NCBI GenBank assembly: GCA_949739085.1
Contig: CATIYU010000128.1
Span: forward strand, 1 to 11,746
Length of the DNA stretch: 11,746 bases
Direction: 5' to 3'
DNA from: an uncultured Eubacteriales bacterium
GTDB lineage: Bacteria > Bacillota_A > Clostridia > Oscillospirales > Oscillospiraceae
How positions within the stretch are numbered: position 1 is the first letter of the stretch; the number at the start of each line of letters is the position of its first letter. The notes beneath the pieces were generated by a model. The model ran no database searches, was not told the DNA's origin, and worked only from the letters and a program-made list of their open reading frames with translations. Of this stretch, positions 4,248 to 11,746 are shown one piece after another. Made by a program: the position numbers and the translations under genes.

Positions 4248-5330
4248 TCAGTCCTTTTCTGCGAGCAGGAAATCCGGGTTGATGACCTTGAAGCTGATAT
4301 TGTTCTGGATATTCCGCATGACAACACCTTCACGCTTCTGCTCTTTGCGAACCACTGACTTGCCCTTGGAATACTCCACCAGCTCTGCGATGGTCTCCGG
4401 CAAAATCTTACCCTCCTCCACAATGGGAACCGACTTGATTCCAAACGGGGCGAGAATCTCCTTGATTTCCGCCGTTGTGCATTTATGGTCGGGGTAAATC
4501 AGGTTAAAAGCAAAAAGGTCATACCCGCTGATGTGGTATTTGTTCCCCTGGATACCGTCGCCACAAATCTCGCCTTGTAAAACGATTGTTTGGTATTCAC
4601 CGATGAGCTTTTTCAGCACATTTTCGATGTCATACTTACGGGCAATCGTCCAGTAAGAGCTGTTATCTGGCGTTCCCAGCCGGATATTCCGGTTACAAAC
4701 GCCAAACTCATACTTGCGGCGGGAGATTTTCTGGAGAAAATAGGTGACGGACTGACCGTCAACTTTTTCGGTGACGGAGAACGGCGTCCCTTTCTTTCGC
4801 TCGATGTCAAACAGCGTGGTAAGATTCTGGATACGGGTCTCATCCGTCTTGACAATCCAATCCGGGAATCCACCCCTACGCTTCGGATTTATAAATAGCT
4901 TGCGAGACCACTTGAACTGCACCAGGAACTTCATGATGGGATTTGCGGGTGTTTTTGGCTGCTTTGTTAGCAAAAGAGCCTCTTGCTGAGCCTATGGGTC
5001 GTACTTGGTGACGCCGAGAATCTTTGTCACGTCGTCACCGAGTTTGTAGTTACCGGCAGGCAGGATGTCCAGCGGCAGAACCAGCCCCTGGCTGACCTGG
5101 CCACGCAGCTTGATAGTGCAAACTCTGAACTTGCGGTCACGCAGGAACTCAAACTCGGGGCGATCCGGCATAACAGAGTCTACCTCAACGTAGACAATAT
5201 GCTGGCCGGCCTCGAACTCACCCTTCTTGACCACGCACTCCCACCCATCGACCTGGGCAACCTCAATACGGTCAGCACCTTGGATGGGGCGGGTTGATGC
5301 AATCGTTCGGATAGTTGCTAACTGACGCAT
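4248..5330 (-). CDS. RNA ligase, DRB0094/Rnl-type, with in-frame TAG
   Basis: A single frame of 360 codons from ATG 5330 (AAGGAGG, seven bases upstream) to TGA 4250-4248, interrupted only by TAG at 4994-4992 (codon 113). Residues 1-112 form the N-terminal OB-like domain of the DRB0094 family (IQGADRIEVAQVDGWECVVK, then KLRGQVSQGLVLPLDILPAG). After TAG the frame continues AQQEALLLTKQPKTPANP into the nucleotidyltransferase domain: motif I EKVDGQS (lysine adenylation site), motif III-like LQGEICGDGIQGNKYHISGY, motif IV EGVVMRN and motif V SFKVIN. Total length fits the family (about 340 residues). The enzyme would seal RNA nicks, for example in tRNAs cut by host nucleases. The amber codon is either a CAG-to-TAG nonsense mutation, a suppressed codon or an error; a second start after it would lack the OB domain. 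Confidence 0.85.
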
Positions 5331-5476: not shown

Positions 5477-6265
5477 TTAGCCAAGGTCGGGCGTAAGCAT
5501 TACACCAGAGCCATCTCCAGTAATAATCTGGGGCAGCTTGCCGTCCCACTTCTCCAGATACTGCTGGGCAACCCATGTGTCAGGCATATTCTCCAAAGCC
5601 TGACGGGTAATTTCCAGAGCCCTGGCTTCACCCTCAGCGGTGGCAATAGCGGCCTCGGCGTTGATTGCGGCAACCTCACGCGCCTGTTCAGCACGAGTGA
5701 CGGCCTCTTTCTTCTCATTCTCGGCCCGCAAAGCGTTCTGCTCGGCCTGCATCTTAGCCTCAACCGCAGCCTCGAAAGCATCGGAGAAATCAATGTCTTT
5801 CACAACCACATTTGTGAAATGGACAGGAAAGGTATCTTCCAGCAGCTTGACCTCCTCGTCTACCTGGGCAGACAGGGTAGAACGGGCCTCCAGCAAAGGC
5901 ATAGCGCTGTAACGAGCGAACACAATCTTTGCGCGTTCCTCAACAGAGGCATTCAGCTTAGTTTCCAAAATCTCATAAGACCCAAACTGTTTAACCACGT
6001 CCATAGCGCTGGCGGGCAACATTTCATACTGATACTCGATAGACGCTGTAACAGGCTGAGCGTCCTTGGTGTAGCTGGCAAACGAGGACTCGCGGACGTG
6101 TACACGCAAATCCATAATTTCAACAGTATCGGAAATAGGATTCACAAAATTTAGTCCGCCGGAGATGGTGTGGTCAACACGACCGAAAGTCTTGATGACG
6201 CCAACTTCTGTCTGGTCAATAATCTTGATACCACCAATCAGCATTGCGATGGTAAAGATAGCCAC
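5477..6265 (-). CDS. SPFH/prohibitin-like membrane protein
   Basis: 262 residues from GTG 6265. A hydrophobic N-terminus (IFTIAMLIGGIKII) precedes the SPFH core: DQTEVGVIKTFGRVDHTISG, then NFVNPISDTVEIMDLRVHV, and an Ala/Glu-rich coiled coil (about 165-225, EAKMQAEQNALRAENEKKEA). The C-terminus is typical of prohibitin-like proteins (WDGKLPQIITG). SPFH proteins form membrane-associated rings or scaffolds; phage copies occur but their role is not settled. A better start by position and ribosome binding site is ATG 6305-6303 (AAGGAG nine bases upstream, six bases after the preceding gene). It encodes MIVLLVILTIWR, a good membrane segment, but it is one frame off and would need a +1 shift near 6270. 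So the real N-terminus may be longer and the gene may carry an indel. Confidence 0.85.
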   Translation of the reverse strand: MAIFTIAMLIGGIKIIDQTEVGVIKTFGRVDHTISGGLNFVNPISDTVEIMDLRVHVRESSFASYTKDAQPVTASIEYQYEMLPASAMDVVKQFGSYEILETKLNASVEERAKIVFARYSAMPLLEARSTLSAQVDEEVKLLEDTFPVHFTNVVVKDIDFSDAFEAAVEAKMQAEQNALRAENEKKEAVTRAEQAREVAAINAEAAIATAEGEARALEITRQALENMPDTWVAQQYLEKWDGKLPQIITGDGSGVMLTPDLG

Positions 6266-6907: not shown

Positions 6908-7481
6908 AGCTCACACCCTCCTTATCATTTCTTATTCCAACAAACATCTGGAACTGGATGCTCTCTGCACATGTGGATTTGTCATAGGACACCTCCTTAT
7001 ACTTCACCTCGCACAGAACGCCGATGAGGCTGCCTCTGTTTTGCCAGAACTCGGCACGCTGCTGCCGAACCTCTCATTCTGGGATCAGGCCGGGAATCAC
7101 CTTGTTCACTGTCTTGGCCGTGACACCCAGGCGAAGCGTCTTGGAGAGGAGCTTCGTGTAAAGCTCCATCTCATGCGGATAGCACATATTTTGTACGAAT
7201 ACACACACTTGATAAACTGTTGCGTCGTCCAGAGTCTTCCGCTTTGACAAACACTCGCAAATATTGAAGATGTCCAGCATGGTCAGCGTGATGGCGAGGT
7301 CATAGACGACTGGGGTGCGCAGCCTCTGCTCCGAAATTTTGTAGGCGAGCATTGGATTCAACGCATAATACAGGAGCTTTCAAAAGTTCTCGTTCTCGCT
7401 CCCGAGCCGCAAAACCTCCTGCTTTTTGAGTGAGCCGGGGGCGTTTTGCAGCGCGTTGATGAGGCAGATTGCGTCAAACAT
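6900..7481 (-). pseudogene. ATP-dependent DNA ligase remnant lacking its catalytic domain
   Basis: One reading frame of 193 codons plus stop, from ATG 7481 (overlaps the nadE end by eight bases, GGGAG upstream) to TAA 6902-6900, with TGA at 7382-7380 and 7076-7074. The N-terminal part matches the helical domain of T4-like phage ligases: KLLYYALNPMLAYKI, then LLSKTLRLGVTAKTVNKVIP and GLIPE. Right after the second TGA comes the end of the C-terminal OB domain: GSLIGVLCEVKYKEVSYDKS, FVGIRNDKEGVS. The nucleotidyltransferase domain with motif I KxDG, about 300 residues in related ligases, is absent. The join preserves frame. Trp or Phe would suit both TGA positions, so they may be TGG-to-TGA changes. 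It cannot be an active ligase. Confidence 0.75.
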
Positions 7482-8232
7482 TGTGTATTACTCCCATTCC
7501 ATAGGACGGCATGGGGAGCAGCTTGTGCAGGTTCCGTTTGTGCATCGCTTCAATCTTGGCATCCACAAGCCAGTTCCCTGCCGACCCCTTCTCGATGTAC
7601 GCATCAAGCTGGGCGTAGGTGAAGCCCAGCTTGTCTTCGTCCGTTTTGCCGCACAGGCCGTCAGCGGGGGTCTTATCCACCAGCTCCTTCGGGATGGGCA
7701 GCTCGTATCCAACCAGCTTCACGTCGGAAACCGTGAGGTTGGCCAGAGGGCTGAAGTCCCCGGCACTATCGCCAAACTTGGTGGAGTACCCCACATAATC
7801 CTCGGACTTGTTGCAAGTGTTAGCCACCCGGCCGCCGTCCGGCAGAGACTGGGCGACTGCATATAGTGTCGCCATGCGGAGCCGAGGCGGGAGGTTGACC
7901 TTGGTTTGCTCATAAACGCCGTCCCGAAGTCCTGCGCCGACAACCGCCATCAGCTTGCTGTACACCCCACTGATGTTGACGGTGATGTGCTGGATGCCCA
8001 GCTCTTTGACCACCTTGACAGAATCGGAGATGTCCTTCTGGATGCCATTGGGCATCAGTACGCCAAAAACCCGGTCTTTGCCCAGGGCTTCAACACACAG
8101 GGCGGCGACAATCGTGCTGTCTTTTCCGCCGGAGATACCGACAACGGCACTGCACTCGGGCCCGTTCTTCTCAAAATAGTCACAAATCCATTGGACGATG
8201 GCATCTTTTGTTTTCTTGGGATCACGAATCAT
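7474..8232 (-). CDS. nadE: Ammonia-dependent NAD+ synthetase
   Basis: 252 residues from ATG 8232-8230, two bases after the preceding stop. NadE amidates nicotinic acid adenine dinucleotide to NAD+ with ATP and ammonia. Visible signatures: the ATP PP-loop SGGKDST (about residues 34-40), then RMATLYAVAQSLPDGGRVAN (about 118-137), NKSEDYVGYSTKFGDSAGDF, and the C-terminal PADGLCGKTDEDKLGFTYAQ. Length is near the family norm (about 250-280), with no glutaminase domain, so it is the NH3-dependent type. It appears intact, unlike several neighbours. In this cluster it would complete a deamidated route, but a nicotinate phosphoribosyltransferase and an adenylyltransferase are not visible. Confidence 0.95.
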   Translation of the reverse strand: MIRDPKKTKDAIVQWICDYFEKNGPECSAVVGISGGKDSTIVAALCVEALGKDRVFGVLMPNGIQKDISDSVKVVKELGIQHITVNISGVYSKLMAVVGAGLRDGVYEQTKVNLPPRLRMATLYAVAQSLPDGGRVANTCNKSEDYVGYSTKFGDSAGDFSPLANLTVSDVKLVGYELPIPKELVDKTPADGLCGKTDEDKLGFTYAQLDAYIEKGSAGNWLVDAKIEAMHKRNLHKLLPMPSYGMGVIHNV

Positions 8233-8234
8233 TG

Positions 8235-8507
8235 TTACTGCACCTCTTTCTCAACAATCTCCCAGCAGTAAATTACGGCGAGATCGCCAAAACTGCGAGT
8301 GTTTCTGCCAAGATGAATCTCTCGCTCTTCCTCCCAGGTCATGTCCTCATCCCAAAAATTGGGCTGGACGGAGTGATATGCTTTGGTCGCGTCCGCATCT
8401 GCCTTCATATCTGCGATAGCGTCATCCACATTTTCGTAGACCGCCATGATTTCGTTGCCTTCGTTATCTGGGGTGTTCCAGTAACGGTGTAAGACATAGA
8501 CCGTCAT
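8235..8507 (-). CDS. Unknown 90-residue protein in the NAD cluster
   Basis: Starts at ATG 8507-8505, with GGAGG seven bases upstream inside the end of the macrodomain gene. The frame is open upstream, but that stretch shadows the macrodomain gene. The protein MTVYVLHRYWNTPDNEGNEI has a run of acidic residues (DAIADMKADADATKAYH) and an aromatic/acidic middle (NFWDEDMTWEEEREIHLG). No family recognised. It overlaps neither neighbour and sits two bases before nadE, so it is translated within the NAD operon. Its position between macrodomain and NadE is the only hint of role. Confidence 0.75.
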   Translation of the reverse strand: MTVYVLHRYWNTPDNEGNEIMAVYENVDDAIADMKADADATKAYHSVQPNFWDEDMTWEEEREIHLGRNTRSFGDLAVIYCWEIVEKEVQ

Positions 8508-8508
8508 G

Positions 8509-9015
8509 TTAAAGCCTCCATAACTCGTCTGTGTGGTCCTGACCGGGAATCTTTTCAATGAGGCTGTAGACAACCTCCCAATTCCCGTTGCCAAGACCAC
8601 ACCCAATTTTGTAGGGCATAGCAATCGTTTCTCCGGCGGGAACTAGCTTTCTCAAGTGGAGCAGGCATTTTTCAAAGGCCGCATAGTCTGTGAACTGCTT
8701 TCTGTTGTAGCCATATTGGTCTTGGGAGAACAGATTGCAGATAGCCTGTGAGTCAATGTCGTTCTTCCCGACAGGATAGTCCTCCTTGTAAACCATCTGA
8801 ACTTGGCCGAGAAGGAGAGGCTTGGAGCTTCCAAGCCTCTCCTTCTCTTTCGCTCCTTCAGAACACCTGACCTTGTACCACTGATACACCGTCTTATATT
8901 TCTCCTCTATCTGCCTCGCAACGCCGCTACCCATTTTGTCTTGGCAATTCACTTGATGGCTGATATACTCGGCATTCGTGGTAAACAGATTGTCATCTAC
9001 AACCTTGACCGCCAT
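8509..9015 (-). CDS. Macrodomain protein, ADP-ribose-binding type
   Basis: 168 residues from ATG 9015-9013, overlapping the upstream stop by one base (TGATG). The macrodomain signature is clear: VVDDNLFTTNAEYISHQVNC, QDKMGSGVARQIEEKYKTVY, a conserved LLGQVQMV, and the C-terminal IAMPYKIGCGLGNGNWEVVY. Family members bind ADP-ribose or related compounds; the closest look is ADP-ribose-1''-phosphate phosphatase (Poa1p-like) or de-ADP-ribosylating types, which I cannot separate by eye. Next to Prs, NAMPT and NadE homologues it fits ADP-ribose handling during NAD+ recycling. The coding sequence contains a perfect 18-bp inverted repeat at 8809-8847, in the variable loop before LLGQVQ (KEKERLGSSKP). 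This may be a late insertion that kept the frame. Confidence 0.9.
   Translation of the reverse strand: MAVKVVDDNLFTTNAEYISHQVNCQDKMGSGVARQIEEKYKTVYQWYKVRCSEGAKEKERLGSSKPLLLGQVQMVYKEDYPVGKNDIDSQAICNLFSQDQYGYNRKQFTDYAAFEKCLLHLRKLVPAGETIAMPYKIGCGLGNGNWEVVYSLIEKIPGQDHTDELWRL
8809..8847. repeat. Perfect 18-bp inverted repeat in the macrodomain gene
   Basis: GAGAAGGAGAGGCTTGGA (8809-8826), three-base loop GCT, then TCCAAGCCTCTCCTTCTC (8830-8847). All 18 pairs match. On the minus strand it encodes EKERLGSSKPLLL. No U tract follows on either strand, so a simple terminator is unlikely. Confidence 0.9.
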
Positions 9016-10509
9016 CAGAACTGCCCCCTGTGGAGGTTCCGGCGCACCTCATCCAATGTATACTGCTTGATGAAGCTGCCGTTCTTGAACACCGTCACAA
9101 GCTCGTTGTCCTTCTGGGCCTCCGCCCAGGTCAGGCCGTCCTCATAGTGGTAGTCGCCGTTGGGGTAGTTTTTATACACCCGGCAGCAGCCCCGCTGGGA
9201 CTTCTTGAAGTGGCCAGTGTCGGTCTTGGGGTTCTTAAAAATCATGATGGGCTTACCGTCGGCGTCCTCGGCATAGGTGGCCTTAACGGCGATACCGAAG
9301 GTGTCGCGGGTATAGGGCGCATAGGATTTGTGGTCGGCCTCCATAGTTTCCAGGCACTGCATGGAGAAGGAACCGGCGCCCAGCGCCACATTATTGATGG
9401 CGAACCCGGCACGCTCCAGGATTCCATAAATCTGCTGGCAACGCTGCGGGGTAATGCTGTCTCCGTACAGAGCCTTGACATGGGGATTCAGAACCTTGAA
9501 GCCCTTGCTGTTGACCGTGCCGCCGAAGATATTCCACAGCCGGAACACGGTCTCGGTAATGACCTCAACGGGGTCGCCGCTGTCGCCACGAATGGACAGA
9601 CAGCCGCCGTGCGCTAAAATCTCATCCTTAAGCTGGGGCAGGATATTGTCCACTAGATTCCAGTAGTCGTAGCTGTCGCTGACCATGGAGAAGCTCTGAT
9701 GCGGATAAACCTCTGTCAGCAGGCGGCGGATATGGGTAATCTCGTCGCCGTCCATAGCGAAGTTGGAGCACATCACGCTGTGCTCTGTGGACAGAGCGCC
9801 AAAAAGCTACCGGCTCCTTGGCGCAGTCGCAGTGGTAGTTGCTCTCCAGCCAAAGAATGGCAGGGACAGTGGCGGTGTTCAGGAAGCTGAGACAGAACGC
9901 CGCAGAGCTCTTGGTCGCGCTCTCAATGCTTTCCTGACCACGCATAGAGAAGTCGCCCAGGAGCCTTGCACGAACCACATCGTCGTCACAGGTGCGCTCG
10001 GCGAACTCGTTGACGATTTGGCGGTAACGGTAGCCGGCCTCAGCGGAAACCTGGGTGTGCCACATCGTGCAGGACAGCATGGTCTCGATGGAGTTGACCA
10101 GCCATACGAAGTTCGGATGGGTGTTGGAAATCTCAATCTGCGGCACCTTGATGTTGGTGCGGGAGCCCTCTGGGATGGCCCGAATCTCCAAGGGAAGATA
10201 GCCCAGGTCATACAGGGCTTTCAGCCGCTTCTCACCAACCCCGTCGGTGTTGATAGTGGCATTGAGGACACGCTTGTACTCAGCAAGCACATCCAACCAA
10301 TCCTCTAGGAAGAAATAGAGGTCGAAAGCATTGATGAGATACTCATGAATAAACGCCTGGAGACCGAACAGGGTGACCTTATCGGTGTCGTCCAGGCGGG
10401 TCATGCGGGGTGTGTAGTAGGAGACCATCTTGGTCAGGGTTTGCGGATACTGCTCTGCATGAGCAGTCTTGTAAAAGTCCAAACAGAGCAGGGGATTGTA
10501 GTGGGTCAT
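9015..10509 (-). pseudogene. nadV: Nicotinamide phosphoribosyltransferase-like gene, one-base frameshift
   Basis: ATG 10509-10507 has AGGAG eight bases upstream. Residues 1-236 are continuous (MTHYNPLLCLDFYKTAHAEQ, GSRTNIKVPQ, LGDFSMRGQES). At the T run read from 9805-9801 an extra T breaks the frame. Skipping one base continues GALSTEHSVMCSNFAMDGDE, then VSDSYDYWN, SIRGDSGDPVEVI, LYGDSIT and NPKTDTGHFKKSQRG, to TGA 9017-9015. The restored length, about 497 residues, matches NAMPT/NadV (about 490). The family joins nicotinamide to PRPP giving NMN; a phage branch (Namat of NARP1) joins it to ADP-ribose pyrophosphate giving NAD+ directly. It sits directly after the Prs homologue and before the macrodomain gene. 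As written the protein ends 57 residues into a wrong frame. The indel lies in a homopolymer, so an assembly error is a real possibility. Confidence 0.88.
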
Positions 10510-10510
10510 G

Positions 10511-10591
10511 TCATTTTCTCCTGTTCATTTCTTCAGCGAAGTAAATGGCGAAGGCAAATGGGGCAGCAACTGGCCAGAAGATACCGGCCAT
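10511..10591 (-). CDS. Possible 26-residue membrane peptide
   Basis: ATG 10591-10589 to TGA 10513-10511, encoding MAGIFWPVAAPFAFAIYFAE plus EMNRRK: one membrane span with a basic tail. It ends two bases before the NAMPT start and contains that gene's ribosome binding site. No ribosome binding site precedes this ATG; GGAAGG lies about 30 bases upstream, before an out-of-frame ATG. Either the peptide starts further upstream and the frame has been damaged, or it is not translated. The amino acid pattern resembles known small phage membrane proteins. Confidence 0.35.
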   Translation of the reverse strand: MAGIFWPVAAPFAFAIYFAEEMNRRK

Positions 10592-10692
10592 AACACTTGT
10601 GAAGCCGTCATCGCAGCCCCTTCCGCAAGATTTGAGCCGACGGCTTTCAGACTGTAACAGGCAGCTTTACCGTATGCTTACCAATCTCACAC

Positions 10693-10710
10693 GAACCTGG
10701 TTTACCAGGT
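10693..10710. repeat. Small perfect hairpin downstream of prs
   Basis: AACCTGG, loop TTTA, CCAGGTT. It lies about ten bases after the prs stop codon in the minus-strand transcript. No U tract follows (CGTGTGAG), so it may stabilise or process the mRNA rather than terminate it. Confidence 0.45.
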
Positions 10711-10716
10711 TTGGTA

Positions 10717-11401
10717 TTACTCCTTCCCTTTGATTACAGTAATGTTTTCATGCTCGCCACGGTAGATACTGTCGGTGGTGAAAACGTGGCGAATCAGGCC
10801 ATCGGTTAGCACCAGCCCATCGAAGATGGCGTTTTCGCAGTGGGACACATACAGATAAATGTCTTTGGCTCCGGCCTCTTTCAAAGCTCTTGCCGTATGG
10901 GTGAACGTGCCGCCACGGGAACAGATATCGTCCACAATGAGGACGTGACGACCCTCCACCTTTTCTGTAGAGGTTAGCTCCAACCGCTCAATCTTGCCCG
11001 TGCGCCAATCCCTGTGCTTGATGCCGAAGATGTACTCGGCTGGCATAAGCTCGGAGTACCTTATTGGAGTGCGGGTCAAAGACCGCGACATGGCAGAAAT
11101 GAAGCGAATTGATAAAGTCGGCGAACCATTTCAGTGTAAATACCTCGTCGCCGTTTTTTACCCTGTCCATCCTGGCGTTGGGAATGTATGGCATCATGAG
11201 CTGCACATGGGTGTCCGGCCCCATAATAGAGCGGATATGGTTCACGAGATACCACACAATCATGCACTCGCCATCATTGTCATACTTCCAGGTGATGGCC
11301 GGGATACTGTCGCACTCCAACCCCTCCATATAGAACCGGAATGAGGATGTGCCGTCTGGGAACTGCGTGGGCTCAATTCTTTTCCCGTTAAAGAAAATCA
11401 T
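10717..11401 (-). pseudogene. prs: Ribose-phosphate pyrophosphokinase homologue, frameshift and internal deletion
   Basis: ATG 11401-11399 overlaps the nicotinamidase stop (ATGA). Residues 1-114 match phage-type Prs: MIFFNGKRIEPTQFPDGTSS, MMPYIPNARMDRVKNGDEVF, then VAVFDPHSNK. The frame then fails near 11060. In the +1 frame the protein resumes as RYSELMPAEYIFGIKHRDWR, then the PRPP-loop signature VLIVDDICSRGGTF and IRHVFTTDSIYRG, to TAA 10719-10717. Between DPHS and KHRD only about 16 residues remain, while PRPP synthetases have about 55-60, so roughly 40 residues including the SPDxG-like loop are missing. The family makes PRPP from ribose 5-phosphate; the phage Adps branch instead pyrophosphorylates ADP-ribose for NARP1 NAD+ synthesis. 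As written it should be inactive. Confidence 0.85.
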
Positions 11402-11746
11402 ACTTCATCCTCCCAGTTCTCGATATTCACCTGGCACATCCGCAAGGCCCGCAGGGCGTTTTCGTGGCTCTCCGGGGTTACACCGGCGCAGCAGGCGGCA
11501 TCCACCGTCATCTTGGCTTCCGGCAGAAACGCTTTGATGAGCAGAGCGTTGGAGATAACGCAGATATCAGTACACAGCCCGACCAGGACAATCTCCTCAA
11601 TGTCCACATCGTGGCTCTTATCGACCAGATACTCGCCCAGCTCCACGGAACCAAATGTAGGTTTCATCACGGAGCGGATGGCGGCATCGCCACGGCTCTT
11701 GACGGCGGCATAGACCTTGGCGTCCAGCTCCCAACCCGGAGTGTTC
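11398..11746 (-). CDS. pncA: Nicotinamidase, 5' end outside window
   Basis: The frame is open from the right edge (NTPGWELDAKVYAAVKSRGD) to TGA 11400-11398, giving the C-terminal 115 residues of an isochorismatase-fold protein that is usually about 180-210 long. The TPGWEL turn, the catalytic lysine region (VMKPTFGS) and the nucleophile region GLCTDICV, where the Cys of TDIC attacks the amide, are visible. The N-terminal catalytic Asp and metal ligands lie outside. Nicotinamidase turns nicotinamide into nicotinate and ammonia. It begins the visible NAD cluster and is coupled to prs by an ATGA overlap. Starting this protein at GTG 11670 would drop needed residues and is not right. Confidence 0.9.
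   Translation of the reverse strand, partial: NTPGWELDAKVYAAVKSRGDAAIRSVMKPTFGSVELGEYLVDKSHDVDIEEIVLVGLCTDICVISNALLIKAFLPEAKMTVDAACCAGVTPESHENALRALRMCQVNIENWEDEV

Follow-up and report, generated by a model that had tools for sequence, protein, structure and literature searches.

The window analysed here, the whole of an 11,746-base stretch of DNA from an uncultured Eubacteriales bacterium (contig CATIYU010000128.1), carries recognisable genes on the minus strand only and is all that represents its source phage. Within it lies a cluster of genes for a nicotinamidase, homologues of Prs and NAMPT, a macrodomain protein, a 90-residue protein and NadE (Table 1). These genes had been named in an initial annotation, and profile matches confirmed their presence, strand and approximate positions. 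The nicotinamidase piece contains the Lys of a KPTFGS motif and the Cys of a TDICV motif, which we take to be catalytic residues of nicotinamidase; the homologue of this protein in a related contig (L010, 1970-2518) matches solved nicotinamidases. NadE matched a solved NH3-dependent synthetase with an E value of 2.5e-34. The Prs and NAMPT homologues are each divided over two frames by a frame break.

Tight coupling of these genes, as originally described, held for most junctions. The nicotinamidase stop overlaps the start of the Prs homologue, the stop of the NAMPT homologue overlaps the macrodomain start, and gaps of one and two bases separate the macrodomain gene, the 90-residue open reading frame (ORF) and nadE. 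It did not hold between the Prs and NAMPT homologues, where there are ∼207 bases without an identified gene. No near DNA match to the window was found among 50,697 phage records; close protein relatives were present in IMG/VR contigs, with 90% identity for the C-terminal piece of the NAMPT homologue. Intact homologues of the operon, for which a search had been proposed in the initial annotation, were found in the relatives L001, L002, L006, L009, L010 and L011, all with an intact and clustered set and some with additional genes or a changed order. In another relative (L004), the macrodomain itself is split. The gene set is real and conserved.

Table 1. Features of the NAD+ gene cluster in the window, with profile matches (E values)
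Feature	Position	Strand	Match
Nicotinamidase (PncA/isochorismatase family), C-terminal part; 5′ end truncated at window edge	11398..11745	-	PF00857 6.2e-11
Adps-like (Prs-family) N-terminal piece	10988..11401	-	phrog_619 5e-29
Adps-like C-terminal piece, other frame	10717..11091	-	phrog_619 2.5e-29
Prs homologue, both pieces together	10717-11401	-	phrog_619
Namat-like (NAMPT-family) N-terminal piece	9628..10509	-	phrog_448 1e-63
Namat-like C-terminal piece, other frame	9015..9776	-	phrog_448 8e-79, PF04095 9e-18
NAMPT homologue, both pieces together	9015-10509	-	phrog_448
Macrodomain, predicted fold of Poa1, DarG and TARG1	8509..9015	-	phrog_335 7e-33; PADLOC DarG 2.5e-11
90-residue protein, accessory	8235..8507	-	ORF
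NadE, NAD+ synthetase, NH3-dependent by size and closest kin	7474..8232	-	PF02540 5.9e-50; TIGR00552 3e-50 (above cut-off)

The Prs homologue was compared with true Prs and with Adps, the partner of Namat in the NAD+ reconstitution pathway NARP1. The N-terminal piece has 59% identity to the L010 homologue, 34% identity over 113 residues to Adps of phage SPbetaL1 and 31% identity over just 52 residues to Escherichia coli Prs, and the C-terminal piece has 80% identity to the L010 homologue and 41% identity over 105 residues to SPbetaL1 Adps. BLASTP with the intact L010 protein gave 37% identity over 267 residues to SPbetaL1 Adps versus 27% over 216 residues to E. coli Prs. In a tree of 54 rows, 40 Adps-type proteins, with the type found in the window represented by the intact L010 and L001 proteins, were split with support of 99/97 from 14 Prs proteins, namely that of E. 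coli and 13 from the nine bacterial genomes searched; the broken pieces of the window were assigned by identity rather than by the tree. The phosphate-loop motif reads DDICSRGGTF in the window, DDLSSFGGTF in SPbetaL1 Adps and DDMIDTGGT in E. coli Prs, and some Adps homologues from phages with Asp-type Namats (defined below) have other forms of this loop, e.g., DDICDGGRTF. As judged from these comparisons, the Prs homologue is a member of the Adps clade and not a true phosphoribosyl pyrophosphate (PRPP) synthetase. This grouping, apart from the Prs proteins of E. coli and of the nine genomes searched, argues against Preiss-Handler salvage, in which the Prs homologue would supply PRPP, the NAMPT homologue would form nicotinic acid mononucleotide (NaMN), host NadD would convert NaMN to nicotinic acid adenine dinucleotide (NaAD) and phage NadE would yield NAD+, giving a boost of NAD+ during infection without ADP-ribose.

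Among solved structures, the L010 Namat-like protein scored highest against 9w5x/9w5w (403 bits), followed by 9ke8 (325), Xcc NAMPT 7yqo (182) and NAMPT 2h3d (152). The 9w5x/9w5w sequence is that of the SPbetaL1 Namat (100% identical across the tested stretch), to which the N-terminal piece of the window has 42% identity over 238 residues. Contacts of the SPbetaL1 enzyme with nicotinamide are made by Asp13, Tyr15, Phe189, Arg192, Asp215, Ala242 and Arg306, while Arg40, Phe392, Tyr396, Thr398, Arg399 and Asp400 form an adenine clamp; an R40A/F392G mutant loses ∼16.6-fold of its activity with ADP-ribose pyrophosphate (ADPR-PP) and is spared in its activity with PRPP (PMC12774641). Alignment placed an RMTR motif (the Arg40 site) and an NTAT motif (Ala at the Asp215 site) in the N-terminal piece of the window and a clamp helix, GAGSFSMQ...YTRD, in the C-terminal piece. 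The readable pieces thus contain Gly187, Ala215, Arg40, Phe392 and the Thr-Arg-Asp triplet, with positions 239 and 242 falling within the part that is unreadable in frame. From the structure-match scores and the tree described below, the NAMPT homologue is assigned to the Namat clade. Phylogeny and the relatives set the two proteins apart from ordinary PRPP synthetase and NadV and revealed a conserved operon; the NARP1-type identity first proposed for the pair is supported by the trees, the identities and the clamp residues.

Residue columns were read by alignment in 166 loci, drawn from the best 80 of 577 viral relatives and the best 80 of 169 genome relatives, with seven contig-repeating loci dropped and near-duplicate contigs remaining. 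Position 215 is not Asp in 143 of these loci (non-Asp enzymes) and is Asp in the other 23 (Asp-type, or classical, Namats). The clamp is largely retained by the non-Asp enzymes, with Arg40 in 135/143, Phe or Tyr at 392 in 141/143, Thr398 in 142/143 and both Arg399 and Asp400 in all 143, a pattern that speaks against a PRPP-dependent Preiss-Handler enzyme. Such an enzyme would, however, be compatible with the clamp helix of the branch to which the window belongs, which has an inserted loop and does not keep Tyr396 (the aligned residue is Pro in 135/143), and with the use of PRPP in vitro, of which classical Namat is itself still capable (PMC12774641). Two sister families share the altered pocket and have classical Namat clamps, a further point against the Preiss-Handler route. 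In the Clostridium family, all 30 loci read have Ala215, Ser242, Arg40, Tyr392, Tyr or Phe at 396 and Thr398-Arg399-Asp400. In the family of the gut phage phAss-1, Ala215 and Ser242 were present in 115/115 listed proteins (P0001 to P0115, from 120 listed of 5314 homologues), and residues 392 and 396 were both aromatic in 100/115; a scan of viral contigs with the phAss-1 Namat as query gave no match. The inserted loop is probably derived, as the families with a classical clamp diverge before the branch of the window.

The nicotinamide pocket differs between the two groups at two contacts. Asp215 is replaced by Ala (138) or Ser (5), and Ala242 by Ser, in 143/143 non-Asp enzymes, while Asp and Ala are present in 23/23 classical Namats; the other five contacts are unsubstituted in both groups (Asp13 and Tyr15 are gapped in 4 rows). 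As a control, 470 comparable columns were examined. Invariance within the Asp group was seen for 105 columns, and only five of these (187, 215, 239, 242 and 304) never have the same residue in the non-Asp group. Two of the five are nicotinamide contacts and the rest lie at most three residues from contacts 189, 242 and 306; the chance of at least two of the seven contacts falling among five of 105 columns is ∼0.03 by hand arithmetic. Asp215 forms a hydrogen bond with nicotinamide, and a D215A change cuts nicotinamide-dependent NAD+ output 8.1-fold (PMC12774641). In human NAMPT, Asp219, which from its GTDT motif we take as the equivalent of Asp215, determines the substrate specificity and forms a bond with nicotinamide, according to reviews (PMC7096376 and PMC9322656, both in excerpt). 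In a by-eye comparison of the DFG...GTS stretch, the GTD of NAMPT corresponds to GTS in E. coli PncB, an enzyme that uses nicotinate. Recognition of nicotinamide by Asp215 is a mark of NARP1, and the window and enzymes of its type have lost this residue (Ala in the window); the cluster was, therefore, classed as a variant of NARP1 and not as a member.

These substitutions bear on the initial annotation, which had placed amidated and deamidated branches side by side in the cluster, i.e., a classical nicotinamide-using NARP1 and a separate branch of nicotinamidase and NadE. All of the genes for such an arrangement are present, but the amide-binding Asp and neighbouring Ala are replaced in every non-Asp enzyme and the nicotinamidase would destroy the substrate of an adjoining nicotinamide-using enzyme. 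Moreover, PncA and Nampt are rarely retained together in bacteria, according to a study of >8000 organisms and a model (PMC9316036, in excerpt). The coexistence of two branches was not supported and is, in our view, highly improbable. As the two residues marking nicotinamide use have been lost, the nicotinamidase, Adps, Namat-like enzyme and NadE would fit a single deamidated line. A preference for nicotinate would also suit the Preiss-Handler route, as would the NCBIfam name of the L010 protein, nicotinate phosphoribosyltransferase.

Neighbouring genes were detected by profile searches extending up to 10 kb either side of each locus. NadE was found near 130/143 and nicotinamidase near 126/143 non-Asp loci; the corresponding numbers for the 23 Asp loci were 0 and 0. 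Restriction to loci of at least 10 kb gave 113/121 and 111/121 for the non-Asp group and again 0 and 0 for 20 Asp loci. In the whole records of the 23 Asp loci, searches with Pfam models detected no NadE at cut-off (one match was below it) and no PF00857 isochorismatase. In 16 of 20 records of the non-Asp type, no gene of the NadD/NMNAT class (nicotinate or nicotinamide mononucleotide adenylyltransferases; PF01467) was found, while NadE was present in 19 of the 20; this counts against Preiss-Handler salvage, although a host NadD might serve in its place. The four PF01467 matches could not be accepted as NadD, comprising one CoaD above cut-off, one CoaD-like protein, one unclear match and one NMNAT-like protein within the operon (L067). 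Adenylyltransferases resembling NadM or NadR were observed inside or beside the NAD+ set at L067 9365-9952, a Ser-type locus and the most telling case, and at L046 12234-12821; phages with such a gene in the set may run the PRPP route. An NMNAT-like gene near the set, in 3/143 loci, is a feature of the gene content that favours Preiss-Handler salvage, and with all of the above taken together we regard this route as an unlikely explanation of the cluster.

The same gene set was detected in contigs assigned to Lachnospiraceae, Oscillospiraceae, Ruminococcus and others, including Pseudoruminococcus massiliensis and Bacterium 0.1xD8-71; most of these are from metagenome-assembled genomes with binning as deposited, and some of the titles seem questionable (archaea, Alistipes, Azoarcus). 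The complete genome of phAss-1 (code 15), with a predicted host among the Clostridia (PMC10607447, in excerpt), has homologues of nicotinamidase, Prs, NAMPT and NadE near each other. Relatives of a Clostridium paraputrificum protein (P0120) were present in 46/225 genomes of one order, and of 30 loci from this order (L188-L217, ∼1.5 kb either side), 28 had nicotinamidase, 28 Adps and 12 NadE (one cut by a contig end). In chromosomes of this order, genes for Adps, nicotinamidase and a Namat-like enzyme of the Ala type with a classical clamp stand in one run, often together with that for NadE. A second, long NadE was present in three of six bacterial genomes searched (G020, G022 and G024), and in P. 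massiliensis (L148; G019 C13 near 207337) the NadE-family match next to the set falls in an open frame of 656 residues, which corresponds in size to a long NadE rather than to the short type.

A tree of 65 rows rooted on Xcc NAMPT grouped all non-Asp enzymes, comprising the phAss-1 family, the Clostridium family and the gut-phage type with its Ser subgroup, into one clade (99/99) with a single change at position 215; nesting of this clade inside the Asp-type Namats was weakly supported (84/50). A set reduced to <88% identity, which kept 102 of 148 rows (contigs of at least 10 kb; 79 with Ala, 5 with Ser and 18 with Asp), again gave one change between Asp and non-Asp. When included alone, phAss-1 had a very long branch with Asp-type nearest rows, and it joined the non-Asp clade once its family was added. 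A correlation over independent origins was considered and rejected, there being one origin of the non-Asp enzymes (one independent pair). The argument rests instead on what the two substitutions would mean chemically and on genes staying together despite changes in order.

The reading we consider probable is that the cluster encodes a deamidating variant of NARP1 in which the Namat-like enzyme is a predicted nicotinate ADP-ribosyltransferase. Cleavage of NAD+ by a host NADase into nicotinamide and ADP-ribose would be the trigger. The nicotinamidase would convert nicotinamide to nicotinate, and the Adps-like enzyme would pyrophosphorylate ADP-ribose to ADPR-PP. The Namat-like enzyme would then join nicotinate, rather than nicotinamide, to ADPR-PP, forming NaAD in a single reaction that needs no NadD, and amidation of NaAD by NadE would restore NAD+, possibly countering a host defence. 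We also lean, with somewhat less assurance, towards the nicotinate ADP-ribosyltransferase being a new activity at the core of a four-step route that dispenses with NadD and PRPP in gut phages and Clostridium-like chromosomes, with the phage macrodomain adding ADP-ribose recovered from ADP-ribosylated host or phage molecules.

A number of observations weigh against this proposal. The known effect of D215A is a loss of nicotinamide use and not a gain of nicotinate use. The insertion in the clamp helix and the loss of Tyr396 make the use of ADPR-PP less sure for the branch of the window than for the sister families, and the NCBIfam name of the L010 protein, while fitting nicotinate, would imply PRPP. 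An NMNAT-like gene, which a PRPP route would use, is near the set at L046, L067 and, weakly, L066. As the non-Asp enzymes have one origin, their association with nicotinamidase and NadE amounts to one unreplicated event for which no statistical claim is made, and just 23 Asp-type loci, all from the best-scoring relatives, were read. NadE was missing from 13/143 and nicotinamidase from 17/143 non-Asp loci in the DNA searched, some of them on short contigs. In eight fecal phage records chosen for a NadE or nicotinamidase match (L013-L020), that gene was seen with none of the other profiles in the DNA searched, and NadE matches were present in 42 phage records, mostly outside the loci compared for the NAMPT homologue. 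Finally, two genes of the cluster are broken in the window itself.

The broken frames of the Prs and NAMPT homologues could mean that the cluster has decayed and is nonfunctional in this phage, and the RNA ligase and DNA ligase of the window also appear split or short relative to L010. The PHA02142 OB-fold and RNA ligase protein occupies two ORFs in the window (4248-5330, minus strand) and is a single protein of 360 amino acids in L010 (11205-12284); the DNA ligase near 7074-7361 is short compared with the 446 amino acids of its L010 counterpart. Base changes between the window and L001 were assigned to codon positions for six pieces, with the nicotinamidase piece left out. The share at the third position, expected to be one third without constraint, ranged from 48% (macrodomain) to 88% (C-terminal piece of the Prs homologue), with 80/109 changes for the N-terminal piece of the NAMPT homologue and 112/179 for NadE. 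This is the pattern of genes under present or very recent selection, indicating that the breaks are either recent or assembly errors. Several unrelated broken genes in one window are equally consistent with assembly error, and the breaks have no bearing on function in the intact relatives. Decay of the cluster is, on balance, a highly improbable explanation.

An AlphaFold2 model of the macrodomain was obtained with a mean local confidence (pLDDT) of 87 and a predicted template modelling score (pTM) of 0.85. Foldseek ranked Poa1p (3.6e-10), DarG of Mycobacterium tuberculosis (Mtb; 6.4e-10) and TARG1 (9.5e-10) as the top matches. These enzymes act by taking groups off ADP-ribose or by releasing ADP-ribose from its targets, and the protein is like them in predicted fold and unlike them in sequence, with ∼20% identity to the top-ranked matches. 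Assignment as a DarG antitoxin was rejected, with the L010 homologue scoring 48 bits against an NCBIfam DarG cut-off of 250, and no PADLOC match to DarT was found in the 10 window ORFs scanned. Phage macrodomains have been argued to act mostly on small ADP-ribose derivatives (PMC9503650, in excerpt). In the proposed deamidating route, the macrodomain would probably free ADP-ribose from ADP-ribosylated molecules or from ADP-ribose-1″-phosphate. That it feeds ADP-ribose to Adps is a reasonable guess by analogy with RyDEP, a feeder enzyme described below. A macrodomain gene was found near 31/55 A-type viral loci (at least 10 kb) versus 6/61 loci on genome contigs, indicating that it is mostly a feature of the phage version of the cluster.

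The 90-residue protein, which had been counted as part of the operon, is not conserved with it. Its homologues form 25 clusters in the protein collection, its own included, and it had no match in the relatives' loci searched (E 0.1) or in the 50,697 phage records (E 0.01); a place in the core of the pathway was rejected on these grounds. One of the homologues reaches the cut-off of DUF7336. Another (P0263) has an LPD15 polyvalent-protein domain in place of the N-terminal part and looks like a hybrid.

Other genes were noted in and around the cluster. Between the Adps and Namat-like genes, L001 (2320-4898) has genes for a PAPS-reductase-like protein, an HD-domain protein and an RtcB RNA ligase, as identified by Pfam, and the same interval of L010 (3351-5163) has ORFs resembling, by eye, those for the HD-domain protein and RtcB. 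These intervening genes hint at a link between NAD+ rebuilding and RNA repair. The window also encodes, on the minus strand, an SPFH/band-7 protein (5477-6265; PF01145, 2e-23), a Gp88-family protein (2203-2895; PF17338) and an N6-methylase-like protein (1022-1759; PF02384). In several relatives, ORFs that by eye resemble the SPFH/band-7 gene lie downstream of the NAD+ set.

If the proposal is correct, NAD+ rebuilding driven by ADP-ribose exists in a second, deamidating form, based on an enzyme activity undescribed among the literature matches listed. It would provide a reason for the carriage of nicotinamidase and NadE by some phages and might account for the extra adps-like, nadE and 'nicotinate phosphoribosyltransferase' genes of Clostridium and Lachnospiraceae genomes, while the two swapped residues would constitute a simple sequence test for the choice of pyridine by Namat. 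No published description of a deamidating variant was found among the literature matches listed, a scope that does not extend to the original NARP1 paper and its supplements. The main text of the report on the Namat structure does not mention nicotinic acid, nicotinate, nicotinamidase or NadE (PMC12774641), and the main text of a survey from 2022 covering 21,191 viral proteomes does not mention nicotinamidase or NadE (PMC9503650).

The closest known system is NARP1, as found in SPbetaL1, Bas63 and Paenibacillus foliorum. The cluster is like NARP1 in its pairing of the Adps and Namat families, in the adenine-clamp residues Arg40, Phe392 and Thr-Arg-Asp and in having both phage and chromosomal homes. 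NARP1 differs in having Asp215 and Ala242, and here nicotinamidase and NadE, and in phages often a macrodomain, have been added. The NARP1 operon of phage DyoEdafos similarly includes a feeder enzyme that makes ADP-ribose, RyDEP; this is an RyR-domain glycosidase of cyclic ADP-ribose, while the candidate feeder here is the macrodomain (PMC13232231, in excerpt). Preiss-Handler salvage (PncA, PncB, NadD and NadE) shares the nicotinamidase and NadE steps with the cluster and is unlike it in that the PRPP donor and NadD would here apparently be bypassed via ADPR-PP. NARP2, or NadV and NadM salvage as in KVP40, is another example of phage NAD+ salvage by a NAMPT-family enzyme and differs in requiring an adenylyltransferase for nicotinamide mononucleotide. 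Membership of this system was rejected, with PF01467 matches in just 4 of 20 records of the present type and one of these NMNAT-like and in the operon. NadV, NadM and NadR are described in the survey of viral proteomes (PMC9503650, in excerpt).

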